The notes under the pieces were generated by a model. That model searched no databases. It saw only the letters and a program-made list of their open reading frames with translations, and was not told the origin of the DNA. The translations under genes and the position numbers were made by a program. From positions 8,245,220-8,309,219 of the forward strand of contig OX422189.1 in NCBI GenBank assembly GCA_949130485.1: a stretch of 64,000 bases of DNA. The letters run 5' to 3'. Each line of letters begins with the position of its first letter. The first letter of the stretch is position 1. The stretch comes from Agelas oroides. Taxonomy: Eukaryota; Porifera; Demospongiae; Agelasida; Agelasidae. Below, one piece after another: positions 24,573 to 52,939 of this stretch.

Positions 24573-24590
24573 ATGGCAAACCAGCCTGAA
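24573..24590 (+). CDS. K1 exon 1 (initiator, MANQPE)
   Basis: ATGGCAAACCAGCCTGAA is followed by the strong donor GTAAGTCTTG, phase 0. The paralogue K2 has the matching exon ATGGACAACCAGGCTAAA with the same donor sequence, which supports both as true first exons. Confidence 0.7.
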
Positions 24591-27500
24591 GTAAGTCTTG
24601 TGGCTAAATCATTTGGCTAACTCGCACGAAGCAAAAGTGGGTGGGAATTTATACAGTATTGCGTCCGCTATGAGCCTGTTATGGCTATCACTAAAATCAT
24701 AGCTATGCTAAAATTAATAGTTTGACTATAAGTATGTGACAGATAGATCTACGTTTGATATGTCTATGTGGGTGGGTGGATAAATATACCACGTCATTGC
24801 GTGTGGGTAGATTTCAGATCAGTGTTATGCTGGCAACAAATTAAATTGGTATGGCCTAAACTAAAATGCTTGCTTTATTTATGCTGGACAGCAAACTCAA
24901 ATTTTATGCTGCTCGGGCCAGATGGCTTTTCAAAGAGGATCGGTAGGTCAGCTTAAAATGACAATAGTCTGAGCACTAGGAGCAATCCTCACCGACCTTT
25001 GACCTCCAATGACGTGTATCCTCAGTAGTGCATGGCTATAAATAGCAACAGTTGTTCACATTTCTTCACTTTCGCCCTGATGACGACTGGAGCATTCAGT
25101 CAAAACATCGGCAAGTTATTTTCCAAGCTCAAGTTGGTAACAGATAACCTTCTCTTCATTTAAAATTAGATAGGTATGGCCTTATGGGAATTGATTTACT
25201 AGTATATGTGAATCACCCTTAATCCAGTGAAGTTGCTCACCAAATACCGGCCAGCTTCTGTTATAATGGAAAAATTGATCAAAACAACATGACCATGAAT
25301 GGAAATTATTACGGTTCAATATCGCTGCATGCATGGCCTATGCATGTACTGCCCAATTAATCGGCTTCTGCGAGTTGAAACTTCTTAAATAAATACTAGC
25401 TTCTGCCGGTGGAGATTATTGGCTTCTGATATAAGCCCCACGATGATGAATCATCTCACTAGTATAAGAGTAGTAGTACCTGGGGGTCAACATTGTCAAT
25501 AACTGGCAACCATCTTGCCATGGTGCTTTGTCTGAGTGAGAGGATTGACCAGCAAGTATTAGAAATCAGCATTGTTATAGACCTTGCATGACTAAATGTT
25601 ACTTACTGTAGTGTTGAACTGCTGCCACCAAGGCAATTCAATGTCCGTGAGCAACCAGAACTGTCAGCAGTTATGCTTGTGCACTCTGACTTACTATATT
25701 ATGACTTAAGGAACCTGCAATCTCCCTGGAAAAGGTCTAGATGTTATGCAAAGTCATCCACTACGCAGGATGTGTTTCAGCCAATACCAAGCCTCATCAG
25801 TAGACAGAACAGGCTGCTTACTGACAGCAGAGGACAGTGAGCTTTCTCTAAAGTGCTTTACTGGTTGAAAGCTTACTTAGGTTAACCCTATCACTTAATA
25901 AAGATCTATAGCTTTATGTAAAAAGCTCTGTTTTAGAAAAGTGTTTCCAGCTCCAGCACAATGTAAGGTTATGGCTAACTTAGCAACATGGAACTCATAA
26001 CAGCAATTAGTTAACACAACTGGCACATTAACTAGAGTCGTAGACTGTGCCTTACATAGGTATTTCCATTCCACAGAAAACCCTCTTTCATCCTCTTGTC
26101 TCGTTAGAGTGGGAGAGATGCGCATCACTTCCAACAGTTCAGCGCATGCGAGATGCCCAAGCTGTAGTGCTGAATAACAAAGTTTATGTTAGTGCAGCTG
26201 GCATACTGGACCCAACTGGAATGTGTGGTTTCGATAGCAATATCATTTGTATATATGATGTCAGTGGCAATTCGTGGAAAGAGATTCGAAGCACTACCTC
26301 TCAACATGCCATTGCTGTCTACAAAAAGCAACTAGTGTTGGTTGGAGGAAAAGATCACTCTACTCGTGCCTGCACCAATGAGTTACGGGTCCTTCAGAAT
26401 GATGAGGAAAAATGGACCCAACCTCTTCCCCCTATGCCAACAAAGAGAAGCAATGCATCAGCCATAGCTATTGGAAGCCATCTGGCAGTGGCAGGAGGAC
26501 ATGAACCTCTTAGACATTATCCCATTCCCCTTGACACGGTGGAAACCTATGATGGTCATGAATGGACAGTTGCCGACTCTTTGCCAAAACCCAGCTATCA
26601 CATGAAATCAGTTCTCCAGGGAGACACCTGGTACCTGATGGGTGGAGAGGAACAAGGCAGAGAAGTTTATTATGCCTCATTAAATGACCTGATAGTCACC
26701 ACCACCTCTAACCCAACAACACCAGTGTGGAAGAAACTACCAGAGGTCCCTTTTAAGAACTCCACTCCTGCTGTGTTCATGAATGAACTTATCGCTATTG
26801 GAGGCAAGGTAGCAGTAGACCTTCCACCTCAGTTTTCTGCACTACAGTCACTACGGCCTCCTCGATTTACTTCCAAAATCCATGCCTACTCCACCTCAAC
26901 ACAGTCCTGGGTGTATGTTGGAGACATGCTCAACGCCTACTGCTCCACTTGTGCCACTACTCTTCCCTCAGGAGAATTATTCCTGGTGGGAACAGTCAAT
27001 TATCCTTATAGAATGGGACATATACGATGTGATCAAATGCTAAAAGGAAGTGCCAAAGGTGAGCCATGATTCTTGTTATGAATACTGCATTCACTTTCTT
27101 GAGCACAAATTACAGCCAAATCTTACCTATGAGAGTGTTATTAGTTACCATGGTTGGTTACAGCATAGACAGTGAAGTGTTAGACTGTACTCTACTGTCT
27201 ATGGTTACAGTGTTTAGATAAAGCCCACATTTTAATACTGCTTACATTGCTGCTGGTCAACTTGGTGCTGGCTTAACAAAGCCCTGGCCTAAAATTTGTT
27301 TTAGGAGCAACTTGGCTATGCAGTAGCCTCTTTTGTGCAAGGGGCAAGCTATGATTCTTGCTATGAGTATGATAGCACAAAACTATTTTACAGCCTTGTC
27401 TGCGGTTTTGTTACATGTGAGTGTTTAGGAAGAAAGCCTGATGTCTACCTGCTGATCTGCTTGGTACTACCAAAAACAGCTCAACAGTTGCACTCTGGCC

Positions 27501-30500
27501 AGACTAGTTACACTTTGGCCTTTGTACCTACTAGTTTTTTCATGCGGCACTGTATGATCTCTTTTCTTAATACAGAGATCCAATTTCCTGATGGTGATTT
27601 TAGCATGAGTGCTATTGCACGTATGAAAGCAATGGCTGACATTGACATTTGTCATGAGTTAGCACCTAAACATCGTCAAATGATAAAGAAGTTGTCCCTA
27701 CCACAATCACTCTCCCACAAGCAAAGTCCTACTGGCACCATCATGGTTGTCTTTGAAGAGTGGCTTGATGGGAAAAGTCCACTACCTCCTACATGGGCTG
27801 AGATGATGGCAGTCCTGAGAGAAATTGGAGTGAATGATCTGGCTGAGTGCATTGAAAAGTATTTTGCTGGTGAGCAATTTCATTCTCTTGACCACATCAC
27901 ACGCTCAGAGTGTGCATGCAGCCTTAATCCTATATGCTACTCTCCCAGAGCCTGGGAGTGATGCTAAGTGTGTATGAACTTGCCTTTAAAGTGCTCCAAA
28001 GCAAGAGAGTAAAATTTGACATTTAACTATATGGCTACATGTGTTACATAATATCATTAAGGTTACGATCAACTAGTTGGAAACCTGTGAAATGCATACA
28101 AGTGCCAGTTGTTTACATAAGCAATTATAGTTGACGTAGTACACAATAACTATTTATTGCGGAAGCTGCACGAACGTGCGTCCCCAAACTCACTGGCAAT
28201 GCTCGAGGCCTTGCCATATTTCGAAGGCAGATCGCTTATCCTTGTGCCAAATATAAGGCAAGGAAAGTGTTACTTCTGTGTTCTGGTGTGTTGTACGGGT
28301 AAAGTAGTGTATTTAGAGGGCGGCATGTAAAGAAATCGGACTTGAATTGAAGATTCTACGCTCTGAAGCACATTTCTTACACCCAAAGCAGTTGAATTCC
28401 TACAAATAGTATACATAAAGCACCAGATATCTTTGCGTGCTGACCTAGCAAATACCGTGGATAATGCAAGAAAAAATTTCAGGATCAAGCTTTTTATAGT
28501 CGCCGAGTAATTTGATGCAAAAGTGTTCAAGCGGTGTGGCTAATTGCTGGTTCGAATGTGTTGGGGCGTTTTTAAACAGAAGCTTTTTTGTCTCTGAATA
28601 ATATATTTCTTTCATGTGCTTTTGGACTGCAACTTGTTTGAGATAAATATCAGTTACGGTTTTGGAGATATTAAAGCAATAAATTTACTGTGCCAACAGC
28701 CTCCTGCGCAGTTGATCGTAACCTTAAGGCACGCACTTATGACATTCAGAGAATTTGTTTATCATGAGGTAATCAACAGGCTTGAATCTCTAGCTTTGGC
28801 AGGAGTGGTTTCTCTCTTTTTTGCTTCATGTTCCCAGACCACTGACCACTGCAGTTGCTCTGGGCATGAAACTAGCATGCACACACAATTAGCCGAATCT
28901 GTGCTCTTAAATCTCTCACAGGCATGATTTTTAACAAAAATTTAGTAATGTCTCTCGCTCTGAATTGAACACTAGATTAGGTATGACATTCCCATATAAT
29001 TTAACTCACAGGAACCAAAGACAGCTAGTATACATTGCTTCCTCAGTTATCTGAACCCCTTTGGGCAGAGAGGTGTTCGGATAAGTGAAAAGTTCTAAGA
29101 GAAACAATACTATTTGTATACAAAGCAGATTACTTTCCATTTAATGCACAGTGAAATATCTATGAAATAATTGTTTGGGGGTTTCGGATAATCGATGTTC
29201 AGATAATCGAGGATGCACTATAGCTATATTGCTTTGGTTTATAGGGGTTGATGCCTGTGCCATGCTAGCCTCATACCCAGGCCGTTCATTGAATGGCCTG
29301 GGTACGAGGCTAGCACCATGCAGGATGGCAAAAAATGATGGAAAAGTCACAAAAAAGTTTGCCAAACGCAAACAAGCACATGTAGGGATGAAATCCTCAA
29401 AAACCAACCAAACAAGACGGGAACGACACCACAATACTTTTACACCATCCCTACATCTTGTGCCATTTTGCCAAAACTGTGTGTTTGTATTTGTTTTTTA
29501 GTTGTGTGTAGAAGAGGGTTGTCTTGTAGATGGAAGGGTGTGGCGTGGGTGTGTTGTGCATAGTGAGTATGTTGTGTTGTTGGTGGTTGCTACTGAGTGT
29601 AGCAAGTATGGTCCAAGTTGTGTGTAGAAGGTGTGGAGTGAGTGAGGAGTGGTGAGTGTGTGTGGATGTTGGAATGTGCATTATGTTGTTAAGTTTTATG
29701 CCTGTTTAGCATGATAGATATGGGTTGTCTTGTATACAGGTGGCTGTGAAGTGAGTAGTGGTAATTTTGTAATGCTTTGTGAAGGATGGGTTATTTTGTG
29801 AGATAGTTGAATGGAGTGAAGTACTATGTTTGTTTGTGGTTGGTGTGGGCTAATAATTACAAATGTAGAGGGTTTTGTGTTGTGTACAGGTGGCAAAATG
29901 GCACAAGATGTAGGGATGGTGTAAAAGTATTGTGGTGTCGTTCCCGTCTTGTTTGGTTGGTTTTTGAGGATTTCATCCCTACATGTGCTTGTTTGCGTTT
30001 GGCAAACTTTTTTGTGACTTGTTTCTGTTGTTGTTTTTTTTGTTGCTGTGTAACCACACCCCAAGTGAAATGACTTGTTATGTAGTTTATTGTTTGATGG
30101 ATTTCTGGAGGATGTTAGCTGTTTGCACTTATCCACTTGACAATGGAATCATGGGTGTAACTGTTGTCTAATTGGGTATGTGCATGTGTGTGTGAGTGGT
30201 TGTTCTAAGGCACTGTGGTCTCGGGGTCCTCCCAATAACGGGTATGGGAGGACGTCCTCTTGGTCTCGGGGTCCTCCCAATAACGGGTATGGGAAGATGC
30301 CCTTTTCTTTTCAGGGTTCTTCCAATAACTAGTAAGAGAGTACGCCCGGGAAGATGCCCTTTGTTTTTCCGGGTTCTTCCAGTACTTGTTACGGGACGCT
30401 TGCCTTTTGCTTTCTTTGTTTCGCAGATAGTTCTGCTTATCCCGCGCCCGTTTCTTGTGGACGTTACGCATACTGCGTTCCTTGTCAAATCCAGCACAAG

Positions 30501-30864
30501 TACGTCAACTGCTGTATGAAAGTAGCAACATATGCAATCGTTTGGGAATCAATCGATCGTCAAGTTCTCTACGGAAGTAGAATAACCGCAGCTGCATGCC
30601 AACTTCACGTGCTGTAGCTGTTGAACTTCTGTTGACGTAATCGCTATGAATATTCTATTCTAACAAAATGGCGTATAGCAGCAAGCATAAGCGTGGGGTT
30701 ACCTGAGAATCGCCGATTAATTCGACTTCTTTCTTTGAGAACGATGAGTGGTGGGTACAATACCCAGTAATTTATGCTGATCTTTCGCGTTTGAATCGTT
30801 GTAATAGCTTCAGCCGTTGTCGTGCTATCGTGGTGAGCAAAAGAAGAAGAAGAAGAAGAAGAAG

Positions 30865-30895
<31 letters not shown>

Positions 30896-33800
30896 CAGAA
30901 GATAGACGATTTGCCTTTTTTAGCGACTTGATGTCAGGTATACTTAGCGATGCTTTCCAGCAAATTTAACGATCCTGTTGCCCATGGAAGCACTCGATAA
31001 TGTCTGATATGGCTCATGGAGGCCGTTGACTTACCTAACGCGGACATTTCGAGCGTGTCATTTGTGCACTTTGAATGTGGCCGCCATTTTTTTTCGGGGT
31101 CATCGCTACATATGGCGTACTACCGTATGCCATGATATGATAAATGACGGATAGAAGCTTGCTAGCTGTGTCTGGAGTGCAATTAAAATTGCTTATGTGC
31201 TGTGCACTGTGCAACTGAAGTAATTAGAGTCAAATGAGCAATTAACTTTGTAAAGTGCAGCGGAATGTGCATGTGTTTGGTGGACATACATTACATTCCC
31301 TAGGCTAGTTCTGGAAGTATAAAATTTGCCATAGCACATGGTAGCATACTTTGAGCTTCAGTCTCAATGGTTGCATGCATTTTACTACAGCTCTGGAAGA
31401 CCAGCAACATTACAAAGCCTATCAACAGGCGTTAAAGGAAGGAGTTGCCATACCACTGAAATATGTGAAAGTTCTTTTTTTTGGCCCTCCACAAACTGGG
31501 AAGACATCCTTGAGACGTCGTTTAGTTGGAGAGGTTATGAACCTCGCAAAAGAACCTTTTCAAACAAGCACTGGCACAGCAGAAGGTTATGATGTTATTA
31601 TCAAGCTAGTTGAAGCCAAGAATACCACCTCTACAACTGTTATTACAAAGTCAAAGTGGTCAAATGTAAAAGCCTTGTTTGGCAAAGAAAAAAGCATTCA
31701 TGAAACAGAGTTAGATGAAGAATTGCGGCTCCTCTACCAGTTTATTTATGGAGTTGTTCTTAAGTCTGAAAAGAGTTCTCCTGTTCCTGATATGGTCATC
31801 ACAGAAACAGCCCAGGGTGAAGCTACCAGAGAGCCAAGTCCAGCTGTCCAAGCAAATGTTGTTGAGAGTAATGTCAACACAGAAAATAGTAATCCCACTG
31901 TCTCATCTTCTCAAAACGTTTCATCAGATGTAAAGGCAGGGTATGGACTGAGTGCAAAAGAAATAGAAGAAATTGAGAAAGCTTTTGAAGCTTTTGATAA
32001 AGTTTTGCATACACCTAGACTGGAACAGCTTAATGTTTTGCTGGATGGAACTATCCTTGTGAACATGGTTGACACAGGTGGTCAACCAGCATTCCTTGAG
32101 ATGCTTCCAGCCTTGACAATCAGCCCAGCACTCTACCTTATCTTCTTCAGGCTCAACCAAGAGCTAAAGAAGAGATATCAGGTACAGTATGTCAGTGAAG
32201 ACCAAGATGTTCAATTAGGTGAATCTTCGTACACCGTTGAAGAAGTAATGTTTCAAGCCTTATCAAGCATAGCATCCTTCAGCTGTGCTGCACCCAAGAA
32301 AACTAACATGCCTAATCCATCTCATGCTGCTATGCTCATAGGCACACACAAGGATCTGCTTGGAAGTGATCCAGAAACTGTGACAACTAAAATTAAAGCT
32401 AAAGATGATGCACTTCAAAAAAGTCTGGTCGAGATTTTGGAGACTGATCAATCAAACAAGAATTTATTGCATTACGCTTCTGATGATCATCTCATGTTTG
32501 CAATTGACAACATGACAGGAGATGAAGGAGAACTGGAAAACGTTCGCAAGCGACTTGAGGATATAATCAAGCAAGAGTTTGATGACTGGCCCATCCCGGC
32601 TTCTTGGCTCATGTTCAGTATCTTCCTTCGTAAGATGGGCAAACGTACCATGAGTCTGTTGCAATGTTATGAGATTGGAGATAGACTGAATGTGAAAAAC
32701 ACAGATGAAGCGCTATGGTTCCTACACCACTGTGTTGGAATCTTGATGCACTTTCCTGACATCAAAGAGATTAAAGACATTGTGATCTGTGATCCTCAAG
32801 TCGTTTTTGATAGTGTTACGAATCTGATTTTGAATAGCTTCACATTTGAAAAAGTAAGCAAGCAAGCTTGTGACAAGTTCCAAGAAACTGGCCAGTTCAG
32901 CTTTAAAGACATTCAGAGGATTGCAAAAAGCTTAAAAACTGATACCCTTCCCCTGCCAAAACTTGTCAAACTCCTTGAATACCTCAACATCATTGCACCT
33001 ATAAAACCTGGAGACTCTCTGCCAAGTAGTAGCCTTCCACTCAGCCCTGGACTTCGCCCACAATCATGCCAAGAGGAGAATGTGGTATATTTTATGCCTG
33101 CTGTACTCAGACATGCCAATGGAGAAGAGCTACACATGAAGCAAAGTTGCACAGATCCAGCTCCTCTCGTGATTCGCTTTAAGTGTGGCTTTGTACCTAC
33201 TGGTGTGTTCTGTGCCACAGTAGCCAGCCTTGTTGCCCAGAAACACAGTCGTGGGTGGATTCTTCAAAAACCATGCAAATATCGCTCTCAAGAATATCAT
33301 ATTTTGTGCAAGAACAAAGCCACATTTCGGATCAATGCTGCCTATGATGTTACCTTGATTTCAAAGGCTAAGCGATATGAAATCCATGTTGGTTGCATTT
33401 TAACTACAGTAACAGATGGTACCAAATTGGTAGAGGTCTGCGGCCATGTTCTGGAAACTGTCTGTGACACTCTTGACCAAGTGATCTCCAAGATGAAGTA
33501 CAAACAGTATCTGATTTCTTCCTCTTCTGAGCAAAATGTCTATGAGCTTGGTTTTAAATGCCCAGAGCATCCAGATAGTGATCATTTGGTCATTAACAGA
33601 CCAAAGAAAGGGGGGTCAAAAGTTCTGTCACTTTCTGCAAAGTGCGCCTGGTTAAATTACCATGAAGGCACGTCAATAATGGTTTGTCTTGAAGAAGAGA
33701 GAGAAATTGTTTTTGCGGAGACAAGCTTGCCTCCATCTTTTGCTCAACAGAGTCTTATGTGGTTTAGAAAAGTAAGTGAGTCATGATTTAATTGGCCAGT

Positions 33801-36800
33801 TTCTCTGCATGACCATGTGTTTATGATGCTTGAACAGTGTAACCTCAATACTGCTCACTGAGACACCAGTACCCTCACATGTGAACTGTGAAACATTTGT
33901 CTTACTCTCTGTAGGTTACAAGAATCTCCTCTCCATTACCAGACCCTATATTTGGTAAGGACACCTTGTATGGCATATGTATTACCTTAGAGTACCAATT
34001 AAGCACCCATGTTTTGGGCACATTACAATGTAATGAAAAAAGGATATGGGCGCTATAGGTGTGTAGTATCTGCCCATCTACAATATGTGCATGTTGCTCA
34101 AGCTATGAATGTTTTTATGCCTAGAGTCTCTCTCCCTGTCAATCCTTGACCCATATGTTTATAGTTCTCAAGAACAAGAAATAGAGATACAGTCATACTC
34201 AAGTGACCATTGCTGTCACCTCACCTACTAATTGATAGAATATGGAAGTAATGTATCCTAAGTTTTTGCTGATTTGTAGATATGTATTTTGAGATGTCTT
34301 ATAGCTACATGCTGGTCTTTACTCCATGTCCATAAAATCCAGCTGTTAGTACCAGCCAAATTTAGTCATTTTATTCAAAAGGTGAGTCAAAGTACAGCAT
34401 GCAGCTTAATTATTATCTCTTTTAAATACACAATGTCAGGTACTGTACCCTTATGTTGGCACAAAAACAACCTGACTATCCCCAAATTATGCTTTATGCT
34501 TTTGCAGACCAATTATTCCAGTACTTTATGCCAACATAATAGACTCATCCCTAGCAGAATCACGATTACATGTACTTTAGGTGGGTAATGATACCTTTTG
34601 AATTTATGACTCACAGACCGCTGTCATGCATATCTTGTACCACCTTTATTAGGTTCATCACCTCAAAATCCTGAGCTAAAGGATCTGATGCATCTGCAAG
34701 TTAGTGACTGGTACAGGTTAGGTCTTGCATTAACACTCTCTTCTTATGACTTGGACATAATCGAGAAAGATTTCCGGGGAGATACAAGAAAACAGACATG
34801 CAAGATGTTTGATCTTTGGTTGAAGACACAACCAGATGCTTCATATCAGCAGCTCATCAAAGCACTTTGTGAGGTTGGAGATGAAACAGTTGCCAATTCC
34901 CTACGCAAAAAGTATGGTAAGTATGACATCTTTACATAACTACTTTCAGTATGAATTAAACAACAGTGCCATGACAAAATCACATCTCCTCAATAAAGAA
35001 CTGTTGGTTTTGATCTACATCTGCTGTGGAGGAGAGTAGTTGAACTTCTGAATCATTCATGTTACACCTGTCACAATAATTATAGCATTGTAGCAGGTAT
35101 TTACAGTCAGTAACCACCTGCAAGGGTGCAGCTGGTGGGCAAAGGTTGGTTGTTGCACTGTGTTAGAAAATTGAGTGTTACATTCTGGTGTATGTATTAT
35201 AATTTAGGCACACCCACTTGCATAGCAAAGTATGTGCATGAAATTGATTGCCAAGTCAAAGCGCTGATGGTTGCCATTGTCAACTGTGTGCAGCACAATC
35301 TTCAGATGTATCCTTTTTCTTTACTCGTGTCACACGAGTGTGTCACAATTTATTTTGTGCTCTATTGCATCAAAAACAAACTCACAGTTTTAGCTGTCAC
35401 AATCAAAACTAAAACCCATGGCCATGCCAATTCCAGTAGTGGGAATGTGGAATTTTTTCTGTGCTGTATATAGTGCACGTCCATCTCAAATTATATCTGC
35501 CTCTCTCACAGACAAGTATAGCCTTGAGAGCTCTGTCAAGGACTACAGCAAGAAATGCAGCCCAAGCCACTCTCCTGAGCGACCCAAGCACCATTTCTCT
35601 GAGTGGCACCACACTTCCTTTCAATCCAGGTACTGGCAATCTAGGTCACCTGAAATAAAGAAAAGGAGAAAGCCATCCAGTTATCTAAGCAGGTTGTAAT
35701 CTTCATGACAAAAAGTAATAAGCATGAGTGATGTACATCCATAGAGCTTAGCTTTGTCAAAAAGTTTTATCATAACACAGTTTAGAGTTATAGTAGAACC
35801 TCCCTTATCCGGCCTTCGAACTTACAGGCACCTCCTTCTACCAGGCACTATCTTTGGCCACACAAAATTAATTTCCTGTCCCTGGTCAGCTGCGGGTAAT
35901 GGTAATGGCGAGTGACTCAGTATTCAGAATGTAACCACAGTGCTGACATAGTCTGCACCCAGTGGCTTCACCCCCTTCTGGCTTCTCTAAGGATGCTTAG
36001 TGTCTACTTTTTGCTTGTACAACTTGGTTTGGGACACCATTTTTTTTTACACTTGGGTTGCCTGGTCATTTTTACTAGGACCGCAAACAGGAAATTAAAC
36101 TTGAGTGGCCTTACTCTATGATATTTTAATGACATATGTTGGGTACAGCACTATACACAATATACATATTTCTCAGTTACGGGCATTTTCTAAGTTATGG
36201 TCCCATGCTGCCCGGATAACAGAGGTTTTACTGTACTAGTACTGTTAGCTAAAAAGCCTTGCTTTATCATATGCTTCTTCAAAACAAGCTTCACCATTAA
36301 TAGAGGTTCCAGACATGAGATGTCTATCATGAACAACAATCTGCTTTACCCTTACATGCACCATACTCAGTACACATAGCAAGGATTCTCTATATGAATA
36401 CATGACATCACATATGCAGGCAAATCCCTTCTATGAGAGGTGAGGGTGATGTACCTGGTGAAGGGTAGTTTGTTGTTAACCACAGTTTCATTCAAGGTGT
36501 ATATGCAATGAATATCTACTCAAATTGGAAGTACATCCCTTCCTCTGTATTATATTACTTACCATAAACTCTGGTTATTAGGCGCACCTTGCTATTAGGC
36601 ACATATTATTTATTAGGCGCATGCTTCCTTCCTGGCACTCGGCATAGTTTATTAAGTGCATGTGCATTAAATACGGTACACGATGGCGGCGAGAGAGCGA
36701 GTGAAAAACGATGGCATCAAGAGCACGCAGCAGACTGGATGGTCATCCTAAAGTCAATCAAAGAAGAGCTACACAGGTGTTTCCCGCTTCTAGATAACAT

Positions 36801-39800
36801 GAAGTATGCAAGCCACACCCTTTGTTGCTTACAACTGTCCAGGAATTTCTATTCGTGGAACCGATGTCCACGTGATATGGGGGCCCCCCCCTAAATACCC
36901 GCCGTCACCTGAAATCAATGGATGTCAAGATGGACCACTCATGTTTTACCATAGATAGCTATACTATCCATGGTTTTACGAACAAGTCCGTGTCTTAAGG
37001 GGAGCCCCAGACCACCAGCGATTTGGGCCCTGGGGGGCCCCCATATCACTAGCAATTTGGGATTGGGGGGCCCCATATCGTGGGGGGGGGGGGGGGCATA
37101 TCGCACTTACAATGGCATACACTTCCTTAAATACATGATGACCACAAATTTCGCTCTCTTCTGATTTTACACCGATACTCACCAGGTGAGTGCATGTAAC
37201 CATCTACTGCACAGTGCCGGAACGTTGCTTACTACACCAATACCTGCTTCAATTGCATCCCTTATTTAACGCATGTCCTCTATTAGGCGCATGCTTGCTT
37301 ACCACTTAGACTCATAAGCGCATGCGCTTATTAACCAGAGTCTACGGTATGTTATATACATGAAACCTTTGATTTGCATCTTGGCTTGTAAATACAGAAG
37401 CCCATCTCCTATCTGGAGCCCCTGCCAAAAGTCCAGTTCAAGATCCCCCACCTCAAGTAACATATATCGCTCTGTCAGCCCGAGGAGAAAAAGGTTAAAG
37501 TCCAGATCTTATTCCTTTCACAAGCAACAATCAAAATCATGTTCTCCCGGGAGGTCAATGTCTCGATTCCCCCCTAAGAAAAGGTCGAGGTCTCACAGTC
37601 CAAGACATGGCAGTAAGAGAAAGCAAAGATCAAAATCACCTTCTCTCAGGAGAAGGTCAAGGTCTCAATCCCCTCAGAGGAAGGAGTCAAGATCTCACAG
37701 TCCAAGTAGTAAGAGAAAGCAAAGATCAAAATCACCTTCTCTCAGGAGAAGGTCAAGGTCTCGATCCCCTCAGAGGAAGAGGTCAAGGTCCCACAGTCAA
37801 AGACATGGCAGTAAGAGAAAGCAAAGATCAAAATCACCTTCTCTCAGGAGAAGGTCAAGGTCTCGATCTCCTCAGAGGAAGAGGTCAAGGTTCCACAGTC
37901 AAAGACATGGCAGTAAGAGAAAGCAAAGATCAAAATCACCTTCTCTCAGGAGAAGGTCAAGGTCTCAATCCCCTCAGAGGAAGGAGTCAAGATCTCACAG
38001 TCCAAGTAGTAAGAGAAAGCAAAGATCAAAATCACCTTCTCTCAGGAGAAGGTCAAGGTCTCGATCCCCTCAGAGGAAGGGGTCAAGATCTCACAGTCCA
38101 AGTAGTAAGAGAAAGCAAAGATCAAAATCACCTTCTCTCAGGAGAAGGTCAAGGTCTCGATCCCCTCAGAGGAAGAGGTCAAGATCTCGCAGTCCAAGAC
38201 ATGGCAGTAAGAGAAAGCAAAGATCAAAATCACCTTCTCTCAGGAGAAGGTCAAGGTCTCGATCCCCTCAGAGGAAGAGGTCAAGGTCTCACAGTCCAAG
38301 ACATGGCAGTAAGAGAAAGCAAAGTACAAAATCACCTCCCAGGAGGTCAAGGTCTCGATCCCCTCAGAGGAAGAGATCAAGGTCTCGCAGTTCAAGACAT
38401 GGCAGTAAGAGAAAGCGAAGATCAAAATCACCTCATTTCAGGAGAAGGTCAAGGTCTCGATCCCCTCAGCGGAAGAGGTCGAGGTCTCACAGTCCAAGAC
38501 ATGGCAGTAAGAGAAAGCAAAGATCAAAATCACATTCTCTCAGGAGAAAGTCAAGGTCTCGATCCCCTCAGAGGAAGAGGTCAAGATCTCGCAGTCCAAG
38601 ACATGACAGTAACAGCAAGAGTCAGTCCAAACAACAATCTCCCAAGTCACACAGGTGAGGCAGGTATTGTGTATACTGCAGGAAATAATATTTTTAGTCT
38701 AAAAACTTGCACTTGTACATCTGCCATGTGTTACAGTTTTATTTTGTAACTTTCGTTTCCAGTCCCTTACCCTAGTACTTTTTAATTCCAGTTGAAAAGC
38801 AACCATAGCCTCGATCCTTAGATAAGTGATGCTTTACCCCAAGTAATACATCTCACTTCCACAGCTCCAAGAGAAGTAGGTCAAAGTCGAGATCAAAATC
38901 ACTGTCACCCAGGAGAACTTCAAGGTCTCCCAGAAAGCAATTGTGGTCTCATAGTCCAGGATACAGCAGACATTCGTCAAAGTCACCTAGGAGAACTTCA
39001 AGGTACTGTGTATACTACAGCGCCTTCAATTTTTGTAGTTTCATAGTTTGTACTTGCACTTCTCCCATTTACTGCAGTTTTAGTAGTTTTCATGCACAGA
39101 ACTGGATTATCAGTAGCCCCATTTCCAGACCCTTCATCTAATCCAGCTTTTGTCACTTCCAGCGCAGCAAGGGCCTGTTTTCCTGCATGTCTTGTCACAA
39201 CACTACAGATGAGCTTCCCAATGTTATAAACTTGGTCTGTTTGACTTTTACATGAAGTACTGTGTATGTATACTACATGAGTGAAGTAGCTAGGGGATAT
39301 ACAGCTTAAGAAACTGTGCATTTGGATGATTTATGTTAGGTTGAAAAGAAGAGTTATGCTATTGAGCTACAGTACCAGTGAGCACACACAAGTTAGATAT
39401 AGATCTCTAAATCTTTCACATCACTTTTGTCATGTAGAAGGCAACCTCATTCCCAGAGCCCCCACCGAAGGTCTCGTTCCAGATCCCCCACTACAAGAAA
39501 AACGTCTCACTCCCAGAAACACAAGAGAAGAGGATCAAAGTCCAGATCTCAATCTCCCCATAGCCAGAGATCAACCAGGAGGAGAACTTTGCAGTCTTCA
39601 CCCCCTCCAGGAAGCAGTGGAAGTCTCGTGGTCCAGGACACAGCAGTAGTAGCAGATGTCTCTCCAGGCCATAATCTCCTAAGTCATGCAGGTGAGGGGA
39701 GGTATTGTGTATACTGCAGGACTGGAATTTTCGTGGTCTAATAGTATGCACTTGCACTAAAGTGTTAATTAAAGTTTTATTTTGTAAATTTAGTTTTCGC

Positions 39801-42800
39801 AGAACTGGATGATCAACAGCCTTATTCCTAGATTTTTCAGTACAAGAGGTGGCCATGGTCTTGGAACTTTATGTGAATGACATTAAGAACGTTACCTAAC
39901 CTGTAACCTGTAGTGAATGTGTCATTGCCCACACAATATACCAGTAATGGGCAGAACTTTGCTACTCTTGTACCCTTGCTCTTTAAGCAAAATTTTTTTA
40001 TATACAAAAAACTTAAAGAACTTCACATAAGAACTTATAGAGGCTGATTAGCTAGATTTATGGAATTTACACATATTATCATATATCTTTGACCATTTCC
40101 ACCCTCAAATTTGTTTGCACTAAATACACAGCTGAATTGAATAGCATCTACCATCTACACAAATTTTTCTTTTAGTAACCCTCGGTTGCATACTCCACAG
40201 CACATGCTAGTGCAATCTGGAGTAAAATTCTGCCCTGAGTTTGGCCAGCAACAGTAAGTTCTGACAAACTTCATCGTCGAGTAGAGACAGTCATGAGCAA
40301 AACCTTGCATGAGTGTTTCTCTCTGAGAAATGCCCGTCTCGTGTAGGATGGACAGAGACATTAATATTTCCTGTTTACGATTCAAGGGTGTGCTATACTT
40401 CTCCATCTCTGTCCTTCATCTATTTTGTTTCTGCAGCACGGCTTGCTGTACAATATGAGTTCTATACCCCTCCTTTGGCAGCTCAATTAGTGCATGTGCC
40501 CTTTGGTGAACGTACTGTTACCTGTTATTCCTTTAGTATAACATCTCCTTTGGCTTCTAGTTAGTTTATTTATTCATTCCTTGGAGAGTACATACATAGT
40601 ACCAGAAACCGGTCCACTCGGATCAAAACCAAGCAAGTGGTGTCTTGTCTGTGTACACATGCTCATGTATTTATTGATACGTATATACTGTACATTGGGA
40701 AATAAATTATCGTATCTAGAAAATACGAATCGCAACTTTTGATCATTTGTGCAGTCTTTTGCAGTGCAATCATTAGACACAGATCTTGTATGGCAGCTGC
40801 TTGCATTGTGGGGAGTGACACCTGATGTTCACTCGTCTCATGTAACACTCCTACATTTCCGTACAGAGTCTCAACTTAACCACCATACAACAAGTGGAGG
40901 GATTTGTTTCCTGGGGGATCCATGGCGAGAGACTGTCACTTCAGCAGGCAAGGAGATCTCCTGGGCTGACATTGGAATCAAGATTATTATACCACCTGGG
41001 GTTATTCCTGAAGGCAAACCGATTACAGTCTCTGTACGACCATGCCTGAGTGGACCATTTGAACTGCCAGAGGATTATGAATTAGCCAGTCCAGTATACG
41101 CAATCTCACCAGAATTGGAATTCAGCAAAGATGTCAAACTTTTTATTGCCCACTTTGCAGACCTGCAGAGTGAAGACGATTGCAAGAACATGACCTTCCT
41201 GACAACACAGTTATCATCCCTCCCAGGGGACTCACATCCATACAGGCTTTTAGTGCAAAAGAATGGAAACTTTCAGAGAGGTTCACGGGAGGGGGAAATC
41301 TCTCTGAGGCATTTCAGTAAGAAAGCCATTGGAAAAAAACGCAAACAAGATGGAAATCAGCCAGGAGCAAGTGCTAATCAGAGCAAAGGTATGTCCTACC
41401 TCAAAATTATAGTGCATTTATATACAAGCTATATAGAGAATCTCCATCTGTGAACTTGATTGTAATGTGACTCATTTCTGATCGTACGTTCTGCTTTTAC
41501 ATGCATGACATATAGTCTCCCTTAACAAGAAACAGGAACCCAAAATTGACAACAAAGACAACCAAGGAAGTGTTGTGCAAGACAAAGGTAATAAAAGCCA
41601 CTCACATACTTGTAGTAGTTCCACATTTGTCAACACACCTATTTCTTTCTTGCATACTACACAGGAACCCAAAACCTGTATGCGGTACAACTTTATCAGA
41701 ATGAAGGAGTTTATCACTTTAATAATACTGCAGCTGTCACTGTTACACTCCAACAGCCTGTTTACATACTAGTAAGCCCAGTGTCTTCTGAGCATTGTTC
41801 TGAAAGCTTTTAAGCTAGTGTACAAACAGTAATCTTACATCAATCAACCTACAGAACTTCAAGAAATGCTTAGAGGAATGGTATCCTCCTCCTTTCCGCT
41901 TTGTACCATCTGAGACCAGTGTTAACTTTTCCGGGTGTAAAGCAAGTGTTGAAATTCCTACTGATGATGACACACAAGGATGGAAGATTATACCTGACAT
42001 ACAGCCATGTGAGGTATGAAAGTTCATGTGGAATTAAGACTTAGTACAAACTTGCTTAGCACAATTTTCTGAATGGAACCTTTCTTTATACTTCCAACAG
42101 ATAAGCAAAGATGCAGTGGACCTCCCTGTTTCAAAGCCAGATGCAGATTACACCATTGCTTCGACCTATCCACCAAAAATATTGCTGACAATCTCACCTC
42201 TAGCAGCTAAAGTAGACTTCAGATTTTGCCAACTTCCAATCAGTGGATTTACCAAGGAGGTGAAATTTACACTGCAACTGAACCCATCCCTGCGTAGGGT
42301 GACACCACTTAGTCAACGGAGGTTGCTGCCTTCAATAACTGACTGTGAGACTGAACATCTTTCCTTTGGTAAGTTCACATAGTAGTTTATTATTGTAATA
42401 GCATTTCTATGGCAGACCATTAAAGTGAGATCTTCTATCATTTTCTAGCTGCAATCAATGGCATCTTAAATACCCCAGAGTTAAGTAGCACCAATTTGGT
42501 ACTATAAGGAAACTACGAGACTACACCATTCTACATCTTTTTCCATTCTTCCAATCACACACATGCACACCACAATCTATATACAGTGGAACCCCGCTTA
42601 ACGGACACCCCTCAACAGCGGACACTCATGATATAACGGACAATTCTGAAAGTCCCGACTGTCCTTCCACTCACTTCAATGCTTAAGCAACCCCTGAATA
42701 GCAGACACCTTGCTACTCCGTATAATGGACAGTTTTCGCAGTCCCAATTGTAAACAATACTCAACGACCCCAATTTAGCGGACACTCGTCCACCTTTTCA

Positions 42801-44328
42801 ACTTGACATTAGATTAGTTCCGTTACTTGTAGTACTAGCCTTCCCCACCAGCGTACAGCAAATAAAGCTCTGAAAATGTAGCCACGTTGTGCTCAACAGC
42901 CTGATTACACATGCCATGCCTACCGGAAATATACCGGAAGCACCTGAGTTAGGGACACCTCGCTATAAGGGACAAAATGCTGGTCCCCAATGGTGTCCGT
43001 TATAGAGAGGTTCCACTGTACCTATTTACAACCAACAAATGATTCTAGCACTTCACAGCATGCAACTTTCTCACACTGTGGTTCATCTTACATGTATGGC
43101 AACATGCACTATAGACTCAACAAGAGCGCATAAGAACGGGCGGCTAGAGTAAGAGCGTGTAACTACGTAAAATTCGAAACCGGGCGGAATTTACTGTTAG
43201 TACTAAAAATAGTAACACCTGCGCATGCTGCGTTGACATAAGCCATTATGCATTGTTGCTAAGCACGCACGTGACTGTGTGTTCTATTTTTAGTACGGTT
43301 CAATAATTTTGCCCGGACTACGGGCTTCTATTGGAGTTACATGCTCTTACTCTAGCCGCCCGTTCTTATGCGCTCTTGACTCAATATATATAGTTCACTT
43401 CACATCTTCCACATGATATGAGTTCATGCCTGCCATATTCAGTGGCAATAAACAATTGCAACACTGACGAGCTTTGTCTCTGGTCATTGCTAAAATTACC
43501 ACTCAGGAAATACCCTAACTCCTCCCTAACAGCTATGTGCACGATGACATCTACATTTAAGAACATACTTTGAAATAATAGCAGCAGCAACTGTTGACAC
43601 TTTTGTGAGCAAGATTAAACCTATATGGTAAACAAAGTTTGAGTCATATACATTGGTTTTTGTTCTGCTCATGAATCCTTTTCCTAGAAGATCTTTCCTA
43701 GTGGTCTTTTATTTATTTACTAATTTCAGCTCGTACCACATTTAAGGTTCACAAACTATCGAGACCTTTTATCAATACTATACATTGTAGTGGCCACAAG
43801 TGATACGTATACTTAGGTACATAACAACAGTGCTTCTGGCCTGTGTATTATATATTTCCCATCTTGAGGTGTAATAATGGTAAGATAGCGGAAGCAACTT
43901 AGTGTAGTTTATAGACTTGGTATACAAAAAAGAATAAAATGTTTCCTGTACACCAAAGTGTGAAGTCTTGTATTTTAAAAATGAGATGTGTTCATACTGA
44001 GTGATCATTTCTTGCAACAGACAAACCAACTCTGAGAGAACTGATTACTTTTCCAGGAAGGAGGGGGAAAATTGATATCTCAGAACAGATTGGCACCAAC
44101 TACAAACGCTTTGGCATCTTGCTGCTCGATGATCCCAATGGGGTACGAGTAAACGCCATTGAGAGGAAACATCATGAGAAGGGAAGAGAGATCAACCTTG
44201 AGATTCTTCAAAAATGGCTTGAGGGCAGTGGCAAGAAGCCCGTGACTTGGAAAACACTAATAGATGTTTTATTTGATATAGGACTCACAACACTTGCTGA
44301 TGATATTAAAGCTGTTAAGTTGCAGTAG
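24573..44328 (+). CDS. K1: Kelch - death - ROC-COR - death - SR - ZU5 - death fusion protein
   Basis: Seventeen exons with GT-AG sites and matching phases: 24573-24590, 26077-27058, 27576-27869, 31391-33771, 33915-33954, 34653-34916, 35512-35692, 37398-38654, 38865-39002, 39438-39691, 40437-40505, 40765-41388, 41516-41587, 41665-41771, 41855-42013, 42101-42368, 44021-44328. They sum to 7,416 nt, an exact multiple of three (2,471 residues plus stop). Domains in residues: Kelch 7-333, death-like 334-431, ROC-COR 432-1225, death 1239-1326, SR repeats 1327-1936, ZU5 1960-2167, unassigned 2168-2369, death 2370-2471. ROC-COR with death is known from DAPK1, and ZU5 with death from UNC5, PIDD and ankyrins, so a cytosolic signalling scaffold role is inferred. 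The weakest joins are exon 3 to 4 (a 3.5-kb intron) and exon 7's GTTGTA donor. The alternative is two or three adjacent genes. Confidence 0.65.
25070..25120 (+). ncRNA. Decayed hammerhead-ribozyme-like motif
   Basis: CTGATGA (25077-25083) is followed by a five-pair stem GACTG/CAGTC and AAAAC, the layout of a hammerhead core with GAAAC altered to AAAAC. Penelope-like retroelements commonly carry such motifs in their terminal repeats. No reverse transcriptase is nearby, so this is at best a remnant in K1 intron 1. Confidence 0.3.
26077..27058 (+). CDS. K1 exon 2: Kelch beta-propeller
   Basis: The acceptor TTCCATTCCACAG precedes an exon of 327 codons. It reads as five to six Kelch blades: DAQAVVLNNKVYVSA, ICIYDVSGNSWKEI, HAIAVYKKQLVLVGG, AIAIGSHLAVAGG, VETYDGHEWT, YLMGGEEQ, PAVFMNELIAIGG and IHAYSTSTQSWVYVGDM. 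Kelch propellers are protein-binding platforms. It ends in phase 1 at AAAG|GTGAGC. The final blade loses the second G of the usual GG (LFLVGTVNY), where K2 keeps LLLVGGTV. Confidence 0.88.
27576..27869 (+). CDS. K1 exon 3: death-like domain 1
   Basis: A symmetrical phase 1-1 exon. After EIQFPDGDFSMSAIARM come helices typical of the C-terminal half of a death domain: VVFEEWLDGKSPLPPTWAEM and VLREIGVNDLAECIEKYF. This is the W-x-L...TW..L..L...G...LA pattern. It matches K2 exon 3 along its whole length. The donor is TTTGCTG|GTGAGC. If that donor is not used, the frame stops at 27961. Confidence 0.75.
28061..28723. mobile_element. 663-bp TTAA-flanked inverted-repeat element
   Basis: GGTTACGATCAAC at the left and GTTGATCGTAACC at the right, each directly flanked by TTAA (28057-28060 and 28724-28727). 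The TTAA duplication suggests piggyBac-type mobilisation. It lies in K1 intron 3 and is non-coding. Confidence 0.7.
29034..29220. mobile_element. MITE related to the element at 833
   Basis: It starts with CTTCCTCAGTTATCTGAACC and ends GTTCAGATAATCGAGGATGC, with a body shared with 1248-1330 (ACAAAGCAGATTACTTTCC). Confidence 0.6.
29264..29314. repeat. CTCGTNCCCAG-family hairpin, short loop
   Basis: GCTAGCCTCATACCCAGGCC faces its inverted copy GGCCTGGGTACGAGGCTAGC across about ten bases. Confidence 0.85.
29344..30020. repeat. 130-bp perfect inverted repeat with 417-bp spacer
   Basis: Arms 29344-29473 and 29891-30020 are exact reverse complements as far as I can read. They begin AAGTCACAAAAAAGTTTGCC and reach CATCTTGTGCCATTTTGCCA. 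The spacer is G/T-rich. It lies in K1 intron 3. Perfect arms imply a recent origin or ongoing gene conversion. Confidence 0.85.
30205..30471 (-). other. Fragment of a repetitive basic open frame (YWKNPEKKRASS units)
   Basis: The minus-strand frame reads as imperfect 13-residue units, YWKNPEKQRASS, YWKNPEKKRASS and RYWEDPETKRTSS, after MRNVHKKRARDKQNY. Similar basic repeats form the N-terminus of large Helitron-like open frames in sponge genomes (from memory, not checked). Here it stands alone inside K1 intron 3, so it is probably a transposon fragment. Confidence 0.4.
30839..30894. repeat. (GAA)n triplet tract
   Basis: About 18 uninterrupted AAG/GAA triplets in K1 intron 3, on the sense strand. 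Confidence 0.95.
30895..31390. other. K1 intron 3, 3' part; possible alternative promoter region
   Basis: No exon was recognised. The stretch includes moderately CpG-containing sequence (30400-31130). If the ROC-COR exon belonged to a separate gene, its promoter and 5' exon would have to be here, but no ATG exon with a phase-1 donor stands out. Confidence 0.3.
31391..33771 (+). CDS. K1 exon 4: ROC-COR GTPase module
   Basis: A single 2.4-kb exon, phase 1 in and phase 0 out (AGAAAA|GTAAGT). ROC G1 is GPPQTGKTS (31483, about residue 463), G3 is DTGGQP (32071, about residue 659) and G4 is GTHKDL (32341, about residue 749), all intact. The COR part follows with FLHHCVGILMHF and DIVICDPQVVFDSVTNLI, the characteristic first COR segment. 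ROC-COR proteins are dimerising GTPases of the DAPK1/LRRK/MASL1 group. A serine-rich, low-complexity insert separates G1 from G3 (around 31790-31930). The acceptor TTTACTACAG and phase fit exon 3, but the 3.5-kb intron makes this the least certain join. Confidence 0.88.
33915..33954 (+). CDS. K1 exon 5: 40-nt microexon
   Basis: CTCTGTAG|GTTACAAGAATCTCC...TTTG|GTAAGG, phase 0 in and phase 1 out, encoding VTRISSPLPDPIF. It restores phase 1 between the ROC-COR exon and death domain 2. Confidence 0.65.
34653..34916 (+). CDS. K1 exon 6: death domain 2
   Basis: A symmetrical phase 1-1 exon. It reads DLMHLQVSDWYRLGLALTLS, DIIEKDFRGDTRKQT, MFDLWLKTQPDASYQQLIKA and EVGDETVANSLRKKY, a clear six-helix death-domain pattern with W-x-x-L-G-L, M-F-x-x-W-L and the closing LA/VA helix. 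Confidence 0.8.
35512..39691 (+). CDS. K1 exons 7-10: SR-rich repeat block
   Basis: Four exons (35512-35692, 37398-38654, 38865-39002, 39438-39691) linked by phase-2 introns and entering and leaving in phase 1. Exon 8 has about eleven tandem copies of a roughly 34-residue unit of the type SKRKQRSKSPSLRRRSRSRS followed by PQRKRSRSHSPRHG, with 30-residue variants lacking RHG. RS dipeptides of this kind are SR-kinase substrates that mediate nuclear-speckle or splicing-factor contacts, so their place between death and ZU5 modules is unexpected. Exons 8 and 9 are phase-symmetric and could be skipped singly. The whole block is phase 1-1 and could be skipped as a cassette. Confidence 0.65.
35792..36233. 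mobile_element. 442-bp pogo-like MITE with TA duplication
   Basis: TAGTAGAACCTCCCTTATCC at the left and the inverted CCGGATAACAGAGGTTTTACTG end at the right are both bordered by TA. It lies in the K1 intron between exons 7 and 8. Confidence 0.7.
36562..37347. mobile_element. 786-bp MITE with TA duplication and G/C runs
   Basis: CCATAAACTCTGGTTATTAG at the left and the inverted ...TTAACCAGAGTCTACGG at the right, flanked by TA. The interior repeats TTAGGCGCA motifs at both ends and contains GGGGGGCCCCATATC-type palindromic runs (about 36876-37105), including about 15 G in a row. It lies just upstream of the SR exon. Confidence 0.75.
40177..40254 (+). other. Possible cryptic exon in K1, not used in the main model
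   Basis: A good acceptor (TTTTCTTTTAG) and donor (CA|GTAAGT) bracket an open stretch in phase 2 (NPRLHTPQHMLVQSG...). Its entry phase fits exon 9, but its exit phase gives an immediate stop in the next exon. It may be a decayed or alternative exon. Confidence 0.3.
40437..40505 (+). CDS. K1 exon 11: linker before ZU5
   Basis: GTTTCTGCAG|CACGGCTTGC to CCTTTG|GTGAAC, phase 1-1. It encodes RLAVQYEFYTPPLAAQ followed by LVHVPF. It is short and its domain is unassigned; it is included because sites and phases fit both neighbours. Confidence 0.5.
40765..41388 (+). CDS. K1 exon 12: ZU5 domain
   Basis: A phase 1-1 exon. After a short lead it shows the ZU5 signature: GGICFLGDPWRETVTSAGKE, then IKIIIPPGVIPEGKPITVSV, then LASPVYAISPELEFSKDVKL followed by FIAHFADLQSE. 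ZU5 domains in UNC5, PIDD and ankyrins pack against a UPA domain to hold a death domain inactive, and in PIDD the region is autoproteolysed. No canonical HFS autocleavage site was seen, although HFSKKA occurs near the end at about 41308. Confidence 0.82.
41516..42368 (+). CDS. K1 exons 13-16: unassigned region after ZU5 (UPA position)
   Basis: Exons 41516-41587, 41665-41771, 41855-42013 and 42101-42368, in phases 1-1, 1-0, 0-0 and 0-1. They encode a basic linker, then beta-rich sequence: LYAVQLYQNEGVYHFNNTAA, VTLQQPVYIL, CLEEWYPPPFRFVPSETSVN, STYPPKILLTISPLAAKVDF. In ZU5-death proteins a UPA domain normally sits here. I see no sequence proof, so UPA is inference from position. Confidence 0.6.
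42584..43018. mobile_element. 435-bp pogo/Tc-like MITE with TA duplication
   Basis: CAGTGGAACCCCGCTTAACG at the left and the inverted GGTTCCACTG end at the right, each flanked by TA (42582-42583 and 43019-43020). Repeated GGACAC motifs lie inside. It lies in K1 intron 16. Confidence 0.85.
43121..43378. mobile_element. 258-bp inverted-repeat element with 6-bp duplication, copy 2
   Basis: It is nearly identical to 16079-16339, flanked by ACTCAA on both sides (43115-43120 and 43379-43384), and lies in K1 intron 16. Confidence 0.88.
44021..44328 (+). CDS. K1 exon 17: terminal death domain 3
   Basis: Enters in phase 1 after CTTGCAACAG and ends at TAG. It reads LRELITFPGRRGKIDISEQI, RFGILLLDDPNGVRVNAIER, INLEILQKWLEGSGKKPVTW and LTTLADDIKAVKL, a death-domain fold type common in sponge and cnidarian receptors and scaffolds. 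It closely matches K2's last exon. Confidence 0.82.
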
Positions 44329-44394: not shown

Positions 44395-44400
44395 AATAAA
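44395..44400 (+). terminator. Poly(A) signal of K1
   Basis: AATAAA lies 67 nt after the K1 stop codon and is followed by T/G-rich sequence. Confidence 0.6.
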
Positions 44401-44963: not shown

Positions 44964-51464
<6,501 letters not shown>

Positions 51465-51783: not shown

Positions 51784-52002
51784 AGATTTGGAAACACAGC
51801 TATGTACATGATGTAATAACAACAATTAAGGACCAATCAGGTTAACTGATACATATATATGCATTCAGCTATATATATAGGGGATCAAGGATGCATCGGC
51901 CATTTTGGTGACTCGATACATCAAGCCCTTGATATTACAGTAACAAAGTCTATAACCACAGTCTCGACTCATCCTCACACAGTACCGACATTCATTTGTT
52001 GG

Positions 52003-52907
52003 CTAAACTAGCCTCAAACACATCCAGTCCCTCATGTCAGCTAAACTAGCCTCAAACCCATCCAGTCCCTCATGTCAGCTAAACTATCCTCAAACACATC
52101 CAGTCCCTCATGTCAGCTAAACTAGCCTCAAACACATCCAGTCCCTCATGTCAGCTAAACTAGCCTCAAACACATCCAGTCCCTCATGTCAGCTAAACTA
52201 TCCTCAAACACATCCAGTCCCTCATGTCGGCTAAACTATCCTCAAACACATCCAGTCCCTCATGTCAGCTAAACTAGCCTCAAACACATCCAGTCCCTCA
52301 TGTCGGCTAAACTAGCCTCAAACACATCCAGTCCCTCATGTCAGCTAAACTAGCCTCAAACACATCCAGTCCCTCATGTCAGCTAAACTAGCCTCAAACA
52401 CATCCAGTCCCTCATGTCAGCTAAACTAGCCTCAAACACATCCAGTCCCTCATGTCAGCTAAACTAGCCTCAAACACATCCAGTCCCTCATGTCAGCTAA
52501 ACTATCCTCAAACACATCCAGTCCCTCATGTCAGCTAAACTAGCCTCAAACACATCCAGTCCCTCATGTCAGCTAAACTAGCCTCAAACACATCCAGTCC
52601 CTCATGTCAGCTAAACTAGCCTCAAACACATCCAGTCCCTCATGTCAGCTAAACTAGCCTCAAACACATCCAGTCCCTCATGTCAGCTAAACTATCCTCA
52701 AACACATCCAGTCCCTCATGTCGGCTAAACTATCCTCAAACACATCCAGTCCCTCATGTCAGCTAAACTAGCCTCAAACACATCCAGTCCCTCATGTCAG
52801 CTAAACTAGCCTCAAACACATCCAGTCCCTCATGTCAGCTAAACTAGCCTCAAACACATCCAGTCCCTCATGTCGGCTAAACTAGCCTCAAACACATCCA
52901 GTCCCTT
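52003..52907. repeat. 38-bp satellite, about 24 copies
   Basis: The unit contains CAGTCCCTCATGTCAGCTAA then ACTAGCCTCAAACACATC. Single-base variants (CTATCC for CTAGCC, GTCGG for GTCAG) recur in patterned blocks, suggesting higher-order amplification. It is intergenic, 3' of K2. Confidence 0.95.
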
Positions 52908-52939
52908 ATGCGTACCAGACTAGGGCTACACCAGGGAGT

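Follow-up and report, generated by a model that had tools for sequence, protein, structure and literature searches.

The K1 gene model of the sponge Agelas oroides belongs to a compact, multi-copy Kelch-DD1-ZU5-UPA-DD gene family of this genome; its DD1 exon is separated from its ZU5 exon by a ROC-COR-DD2-SR block, which has a related locus at a distance of 1.1 Mb. The best explanation, to which we give an even chance, is a family gene with a ROC block that is read as a short chain of 943 residues or a long chain of 2,448 residues and acts as a self-cleaving sensor. K1 lies in the window, the whole 64,000-nucleotide stretch of DNA that was analysed (C7:8245220-8309219), and the genome searched comprised 259 Mb in 141 contigs.

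Exon chain and domain content of K1

Our reconstruction of K1 joins 16 exons into an open frame of 7,347 nt with consistent phases (Table 1), in which the internal exon borders are GT-AG and the one stop codon stands at the end; an AATAAA follows downstream of E16 at 44395. The earlier note had described a chain of 17 exons and 7,416 nt, of which the open, phase-consistent GT-AG character stood but the additional exon and the extra 69 nt were not found. When the seven exons from ROC to the last SR exon are omitted, the remaining 2,832 nt are also in frame, and both frames, with and without the block, are open with GT-AG sites. K1 can be read either way, since the donor of DD1 and the acceptor of ZU5 are both in phase 1; agreement of phases is thus no guide to which of the two is right, and the open chain is weak evidence for one transcript. 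Both frames are seen in the DNA, and splicing into a long and a short form is predicted from them. The first exon of K1 has a counterpart in its tandem paralogue K2 (MDNQAK, 44964-44981).

Table 1 Positions of the K1 exons, the gap before the ROC exon and the paralogue K2 in the window.
Feature	Position	Strand	Description	Remark
E1	24573..24590	+	short first exon MANQPE, donor GTAAGT	weakest part of model
E2	26077..27058	+	Kelch propeller, phase 0 to 1	Pfam Kelch; 71% identical copy in K2; omega 0.52 vs K2
E3	27576..27869	+	DD1, divergent death-like domain, phase 1 to 1	sub-threshold Death match in a relative
DD1-to-ROC gap	27870..31390	+	3.5 kb	high-copy repeats 29343-30040 and 30216-31138; in-frame ATG 31375
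E4	31391..33771	+	ROC-COR GTPase cassette, single 2.4-kb exon, acceptor phase 1, donor phase 0	
E5	33915..33954	+	40-nt exon	counterpart in P7b
E6	34653..34916	+	DD2, clear death domain	Pfam Death
E7	35512..35692	+	first SR exon, phase 1 to 2	
E8	37398..38654	+	main RS repeat exon, phase 2 to 2	
E9	38865..39002	+	SR exon, phase 2 to 2	
E10	39438..39691	+	last SR exon, quits RS frame near its end, exit phase 1	phase fits ZU5
E11	40765..41388	+	ZU5, RHFS motif at end	Pfam ZU5
E12	41516..41587	+	lysine-rich linker	
E13-E15	41665-41771, 41855-42013, 42101-42368	+	UPA-position exons	same order in L045, L023, L046, P12
E16	44021..44328	+	DD3, death domain, carries stop	type also in NACHT-LRR genes
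K2	44964..51464	+	tandem paralogue Kelch-DD1-DD3	4 exons, 1,560 nt, open

A Pfam profile search, together with reading of the sequence, located the Kelch, ROC-COR, SR, ZU5 and death blocks where the earlier note had put them. The Kelch propeller matched PF24681 (1.6e-18), the previously noted ZU5 domain matched PF00791 (5.4e-10, 39.9 bits against a cut-off of 21) and the SR block proved to be the open RS-repeat array that had been described. A COR segment had likewise been seen in the ROC exon; COR-A was recovered in all eight aligned copies of this exon (best 6.2e-9), although the match in K1 itself (4.4e-7, 30.3-33.9 bits) lies under the cut-off of 35.3 bits, which its paralogues P6, P2a, P1e and P1a pass. 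The Roc P-loop match in K1 was weak (E about 0.0034-0.0037, under the cut-off), with 8/8 copies matching at E up to 0.1, and the sequences GPPQTGKTS, DTGGQP and THKD are intact in the ROC exon as claimed. Across the eight aligned copies the P-loop G..GKTS, DTGG and THKD are invariant, and the Q of DTGGQP is found in seven. K1 thus has the G-domain motifs of Roc (P-loop, DxxG, N/TKxD), with COR directly after Roc, both of which are membership features of ROCO GTPases. A profile search of the PDB with ROC gave a weak P-loop match only, to the leucine-rich-repeat protein 4wnr (E 0.0026), which we take to be the Methanosarcina Roco. No kinase or ankyrin match was obtained in K1, and neither a membrane segment nor ankyrin repeats were seen in it.

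The three death-type exons that had been proposed fared differently: DD2 matched Death at 5.3e-13, DD3 remained just under the cut-off of 22.6 bits in K1 (20.7 bits; 21.8 in the spliced short form) and DD1 had no match of its own in the Pfam profile search, while the Kelch and DD1 frame of a relative reached Death at E 0.0041, also under the cut-off. DD3 is 57% identical to a domain of L044 that passes Death at 29.1 bits, and the C-terminal death fold of K1 was accepted through this homology. The proposed check against the UPA profile was negative, with no Pfam UPA match at E up to 1 in the K1-family frames searched. Searched against solved structures, the K1-family profile matched the ZU5 domains of ZO-1 and ankyrin-1 and the death domains of ankyrin-2 and PIDD, and no UPA domain. 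The exons at the UPA position are conserved between ZU5 and the death fold without a profile match, and E13-E15 would be UPA by position and homology.

A Kelch-DD1-ZU5 family and the ROC block within K1

An exon-by-exon search of the genome with the K1 exons, in which only the best candidates were scored so that all counts are lower bounds, yielded at least 60 matches for ROC, at least 135 for ZU5, at least 150 each for DD3 and DD2, at least 30 for DD1 and at least 123 for Kelch; these are exon matches and not gene counts. For the 38 closest of the 123 Kelch matches listed, K1 excluded, we recorded DD1 within 3 kb and ZU5 within 6 kb downstream, and found DD1 in 25/38, ZU5 in 26/38 and both in 22/38. 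The corresponding controls gave 0 on the opposite strand, 0 for DD1 upstream and 3 for ZU5 upstream, the last because same-strand tandem arrays bring the ZU5 of the preceding gene within reach. The counts barely rise when all 123 Kelch matches listed are considered (DD1 27, ZU5 29, both 24), and the pattern therefore belongs to the closer relatives. Of the 30 DD1 matches listed, 25 have a ZU5 downstream on their own strand at 354-2,710 bases, inside a 3-kb limit, with none upstream and none on the opposite strand. The L023 cluster contains two tandem compact loci, each ordered Kelch, DD1, ZU5, two UPA-position frames and death domain.

Kelch, DD1 and ZU5 are ordered on one strand in K1 as in the family. 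K1 departs from the short DD1-to-ZU5 distance, however: its interval measures 12,890 bases where 25 of the other 29 DD1 matches listed stay below 3 kb, and its ROC-COR, DD2 and SR exons sit within this interval. Because of this exon order and exceptional spacing, we regard K1 as a family member with the ROC-DD2-SR block in one interval. Among the 123 Kelch and 30 DD1 matches listed, K1 alone has COR-A within 20 kb downstream. K2, which has Kelch-DD1-DD3, is without ROC, SR, ZU5 and UPA, and its synonymous distance from K1 amounts to 0.40 for both Kelch and DD1 and to 0.53 for DD3.

ROC has 17 long relatives that are 60-78% identical, and we fetched six of them with flanks of -10/+20 kb, or 30 kb each. 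P7b, on the same contig as K1, has the ROC, 40-nt, DD2 and SR exons and matches K1 DNA at about 82% in ROC and 84% in DD2. Neither the 30 kb read around P7b nor the -10/+20 kb around the five other fetched paralogues contained a Kelch or ZU5 match at E 1e-3. DD2 and SR were present only in P7b among the six, P3 has a DD3-type exon, and a seventh ROC paralogue, P12, has ZU5 about 5 kb downstream. P6, P2a and P1a have an N-terminal domain in common, which was looked for without success in K1 and P7b. Downstream of P2a, about 10 kb past its ROC exon, is a caspase frame (L015:6660-7706, minus strand; Peptidase_C14, 1.8e-25).

The synonymous distance between K1 and P7b (0.28 in ROC, 0.30 in DD2) is smaller than that between K1 and K2, which suggests that the ROC copies parted after the K1-K2 duplication. 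Since the split from P7b, the omega of ROC on the K1 branch has been 0.31 (0.21-0.46) or 0.39 (0.29-0.54) with two outgroups, and on the P7b branch 0.65 (0.41-1.14) or 0.58 (0.34-1.24). Judged by these ratios, purifying selection has maintained the ROC exon on the branch leading to K1, and P7b may be in decay, a possibility that weakens P7b as proof of an independent ROC gene. C3z, which carries a 94% ZU5 copy, was rejected as the ancestor of the K1 joint because the match of its 20 kb to K1 is confined to the SR and ZU5 parts, which makes it look like a partial duplicate.

The genome has 132 matches to PF16095 (COR-A), 98 of them above the cut-off. ZU5 lies within 3 kb downstream on the same strand in five of the 132, compared with 0 in three controls that included the upstream side and the opposite strand; within 10 kb the numbers are nine downstream and two upstream. 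One compact locus besides K1, L046, bears out the claimed combination of ROC-COR, ZU5 and death domain in this genome, with a 744-aa ROC-COR frame (COR-A 32.9 bits, under the cut-off), a ZU5 ending in QFS (14.3 bits, under), UPA-position frames and a death domain (26.8 bits, above) in about 4.9 kb from the ROC frame to the final stop. At P12, frames for kinase, ROC, ZU5 and the UPA position succeed one another; two of the frames there look death-like by eye, and the one tested by profile gave no Death match. The DD2 exon type (74-80% amino acid identity) precedes a 1,309-aa NACHT-LRR frame and also stands behind a divergent frame with a sub-threshold Roc match, and the DD3 type terminates a NACHT-LRR frame. 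At C7:7.03 Mb, a K1-like set of ZU5, UPA-position exons and DD3 follows a hydrophobic segment, with its ZU5 frame broken. Phase-1 exons may have been exchanged among these families. An intronless 1,680-aa frame at L043 (C6:9687000-9695000) encodes a TRAF-like protein with RING, TRAF zinc finger and MATH domains and ends in a C-terminal ZU5 (20.4 bits, just under the cut-off).

One chain or a nested gene

The ROC-COR-DD2-SR exons may belong to the K1 chain, or they may form a transcription unit of their own, nested in the intron between DD1 and ZU5 of a Kelch-DD1-ZU5-UPA-DD3 gene. The nested arrangement, which we consider rather unlikely, is favoured at the far end by P7b, whose last SR exon carries an in-frame stop and whose block has no Kelch or ZU5 match beside it in the 30 kb read, and by the in-frame joining of DD1 and ZU5 without the block; against it, the last SR exon of K1 is open up to its donor in the frame used, and its exit phase is the one required for ZU5. 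At the near end, the ATG 16 nt before the ROC acceptor (Table 1) would give MHFTTALEDQQ directly into ROC, but no matching Met is present in the listed P7b, P6, P3 and P12 frames. Five ATG mini-exons with a strong phase-1 donor occur in 27870-31300 as candidate first exons for ROC; they share two donors (29641 and 30331), and all lie in high-copy repeats, which again speaks against a nested gene. Weaker donors do occur (that of K2 DD1 is GTTTGT), and the count of strong donors is therefore no exclusion of a separate ROC start.

The repeats themselves have at least 40 genome copies each, at 99-100% for 29343-30040 and at 93-99% for 30216-31138, and many places in the genome have both of them, arranged in this order; P7b has a stretch similar to the second. 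From this distribution, 29343-31138 is evidently a recent mobile element of about 1.8 kb, and as such says nothing about the ROC start. Its copy number of at least 40 ruled out 30216-31138 as a shared promoter or ROC first exon. The minus strand of the same stretch encodes a short YWxxPExKRxSS-type repeat. Other features of the window include about 670 bases between inverted TTAAGGTTACGATCAACT ends at 28057-28730, which look like a small transposon; a stretch of about 900 bases that by eye is apparently present twice in tandem at 45240-47100, upstream of the K2 Kelch exon; tandem repeats at 51960-52910 (unit about 40 bases, by eye) and 56320-57400 (several frames open); and an open frame at 63047-64000 on the minus strand, running past the window end, for a cysteine-rich, secreted-looking protein.

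A division of K1 into three genes (Kelch-DD1, ROC-DD2-SR and ZU5-UPA-DD3) would find precedents in K2, which does without ZU5, and in the set at C7:7.03 Mb, where ZU5, UPA-position exons and DD3 stand, with the ZU5 frame broken, behind a segment that is possibly membrane-spanning. The ZU5 exon of K1, however, has no Met before the domain and so needs an upstream exon, and ZU5 follows DD1 at short range in most of the DD1 matches listed. The DD1-ZU5 and Kelch-ZU5 spacing ruled out three genes as the main reading; we consider this division very improbable, and separate Kelch and ZU5 genes at K1 unlikely. It is just as improbable that K1 is a decaying chimera, in which an insertion broke the host gene and left no functional product. 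Recent high-copy repeats make up about half of the gap between DD1 and ROC, module copies that are partial or contain stops exist elsewhere in the genome and the omega interval of the P7b ROC extends above 1, all of which would suit such decay; the K1 exon chain, in contrast, has no internal stop, its ROC omega is well below 1 and the omega of Kelch, DD1 and DD3 between K1 and K2 is 0.37-0.52.

For K1, we give one chain or an optional cassette about an even chance. Somewhat short of even, and tentative, is the fuller proposal that K1 is one 2,448-aa protein, in which ROC-COR and the RS repeats would be a frame-neutral optional cassette in a self-cleaving Kelch-DD-ZU5-UPA-DD sensor, in a genome that mixes such exons into more than 100 candidate immune receptors.

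Predicted cleavage and relation to known sensors

The ZU5 of K1 ends in RHFS, and among the 19 other copies read HFS is present in 14 and F-S in 16, the five copies without HFS having RFS (1), CFS (1), HFC (1) and FC (2). The two ZU5 copies nearest K1, C3z and the broken C7 copies aside, have FC instead of FS. With its F-S motif at the ZU5 end K1 shares a feature of ZU5-UPA-death autoproteolytic sensors of the PIDD/FIIND-like kind; in PIDD, CARD8 and NLRP1 this place is the site of self-cleavage, at HF/S or SF/S (PMC3210808), and the cleavage pieces of NLRP1 and CARD8 form autoinhibited complexes (PMC11760013). By analogy, K1 is likely to act as an autoproteolytic death-fold sensor of the ZU5-UPA type that includes a GTPase module, and would release UPA-DD3 after self-cleavage. 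In the mechanism that we propose, the ZU5-UPA module would cut itself at HF/S, as in PIDD, NLRP1 and CARD8, and the C-terminal UPA-DD3 piece would stay bound and silent after the cut. Kelch might serve to bind either a ligand or a partner in degradation, and ROC-COR, as the GTPase, might dimerise or switch with GTP, the two parts together setting the trigger. Removal or rearrangement of the N-terminal part would then free UPA-DD3, and the freed DD3, whose type recurs in NACHT-LRR genes of this genome, could nucleate a death or immune signalling complex.

Like PIDD1 (LRR-ZU5-UPA-death) and NLRP1/CARD8 (FIIND, that is ZU5-UPA, then CARD), K1 runs from ZU5 through the UPA position to a C-terminal death fold, and the HF/S motif at the ZU5 end is a further likeness (for the role of the motif, PMC3210808). 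K1 differs in having Kelch and DD1 instead of LRR or NACHT, a possible ROC-COR, DD2 and SR insert, a UPA assigned by position and a putative cleavage. Among ROCO proteins with death domains, ROC-COR is followed by a death domain in DAPK1 and in Trichoplax as in K1, and Trichoplax ROCOs carry CARD or death domains (PMC4104024). K1 differs from this group in that it has no kinase or ankyrin match, matches the Roc profile weakly and may add ZU5-UPA-DD. UNC5 and ankyrins also have the order ZU5-UPA-death. K1 shares this module order (PMC3210808) without their membrane segment or ankyrin repeats, whereas the relative at C7:7.03 Mb does have a hydrophobic segment before ZU5.

In marine invertebrates, cnidarian NACHT proteins with ZU5 are known (PMC8260672) and TRADD-N is combined with UPA-ZU5 (PMC8195603); as here, these repertoires use ZU5 or ZU5-UPA in varied, expanded immune-type proteins, but with other partner domains, Kelch or ROC-COR partners appearing in the available text of neither paper. 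The earlier note knew of no described protein that has both ROC-COR plus death and ZU5 plus death behind a Kelch propeller, with an SR block inside. In the full-text literature searched we found neither ROC-COR described together with ZU5 nor Kelch together with ZU5 and death. Part of the claimed novelty is softer, as Kelch and WD40 motifs beside Roc-COR have been described for some ROCO proteins (PMC6320773). Where ROCO, ZU5 and death domain were mentioned together in a full text, as far as that text was available, ROCO stood merely in the reference list; co-mentions of Kelch, ZU5 and death domain, seen as titles, include MACC1. In a 2026 sponge NLR paper, by word count of the text available, Kelch is absent and ZU5 occurs once.

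A further parallel is the ROCO repertoire of brown algae, with exon shuffling and alternative splicing (PMC11378527); a large ROCO family, apparently shuffled exons and a proposed immune role are common to it and to the genome here. There, LRR exons shuffle in LRR-ROC-COR, whereas here ROC-COR exons adjoin Kelch, ZU5, kinase and death exons; the 9-47 genes per species of the algae, described in 2024 as the largest set reported, compare with 132 COR-A and at least 135 ZU5 matches here, which are exon matches rather than genes (PMC11378527). PIDD-/NLRP1-type self-cleaving sensors and ROCO GTPases are separate families in the literature examined, and several loci of this genome combine their exons. 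If the exon-swap picture is true, the sponge would offer a test system for a varied receptor set in an animal without adaptive immunity, and for whether a ROC GTPase gates ZU5-UPA release; a K1 that is indeed one chain would be a cousin of PIDD and NLRP1 gated by a GTPase.
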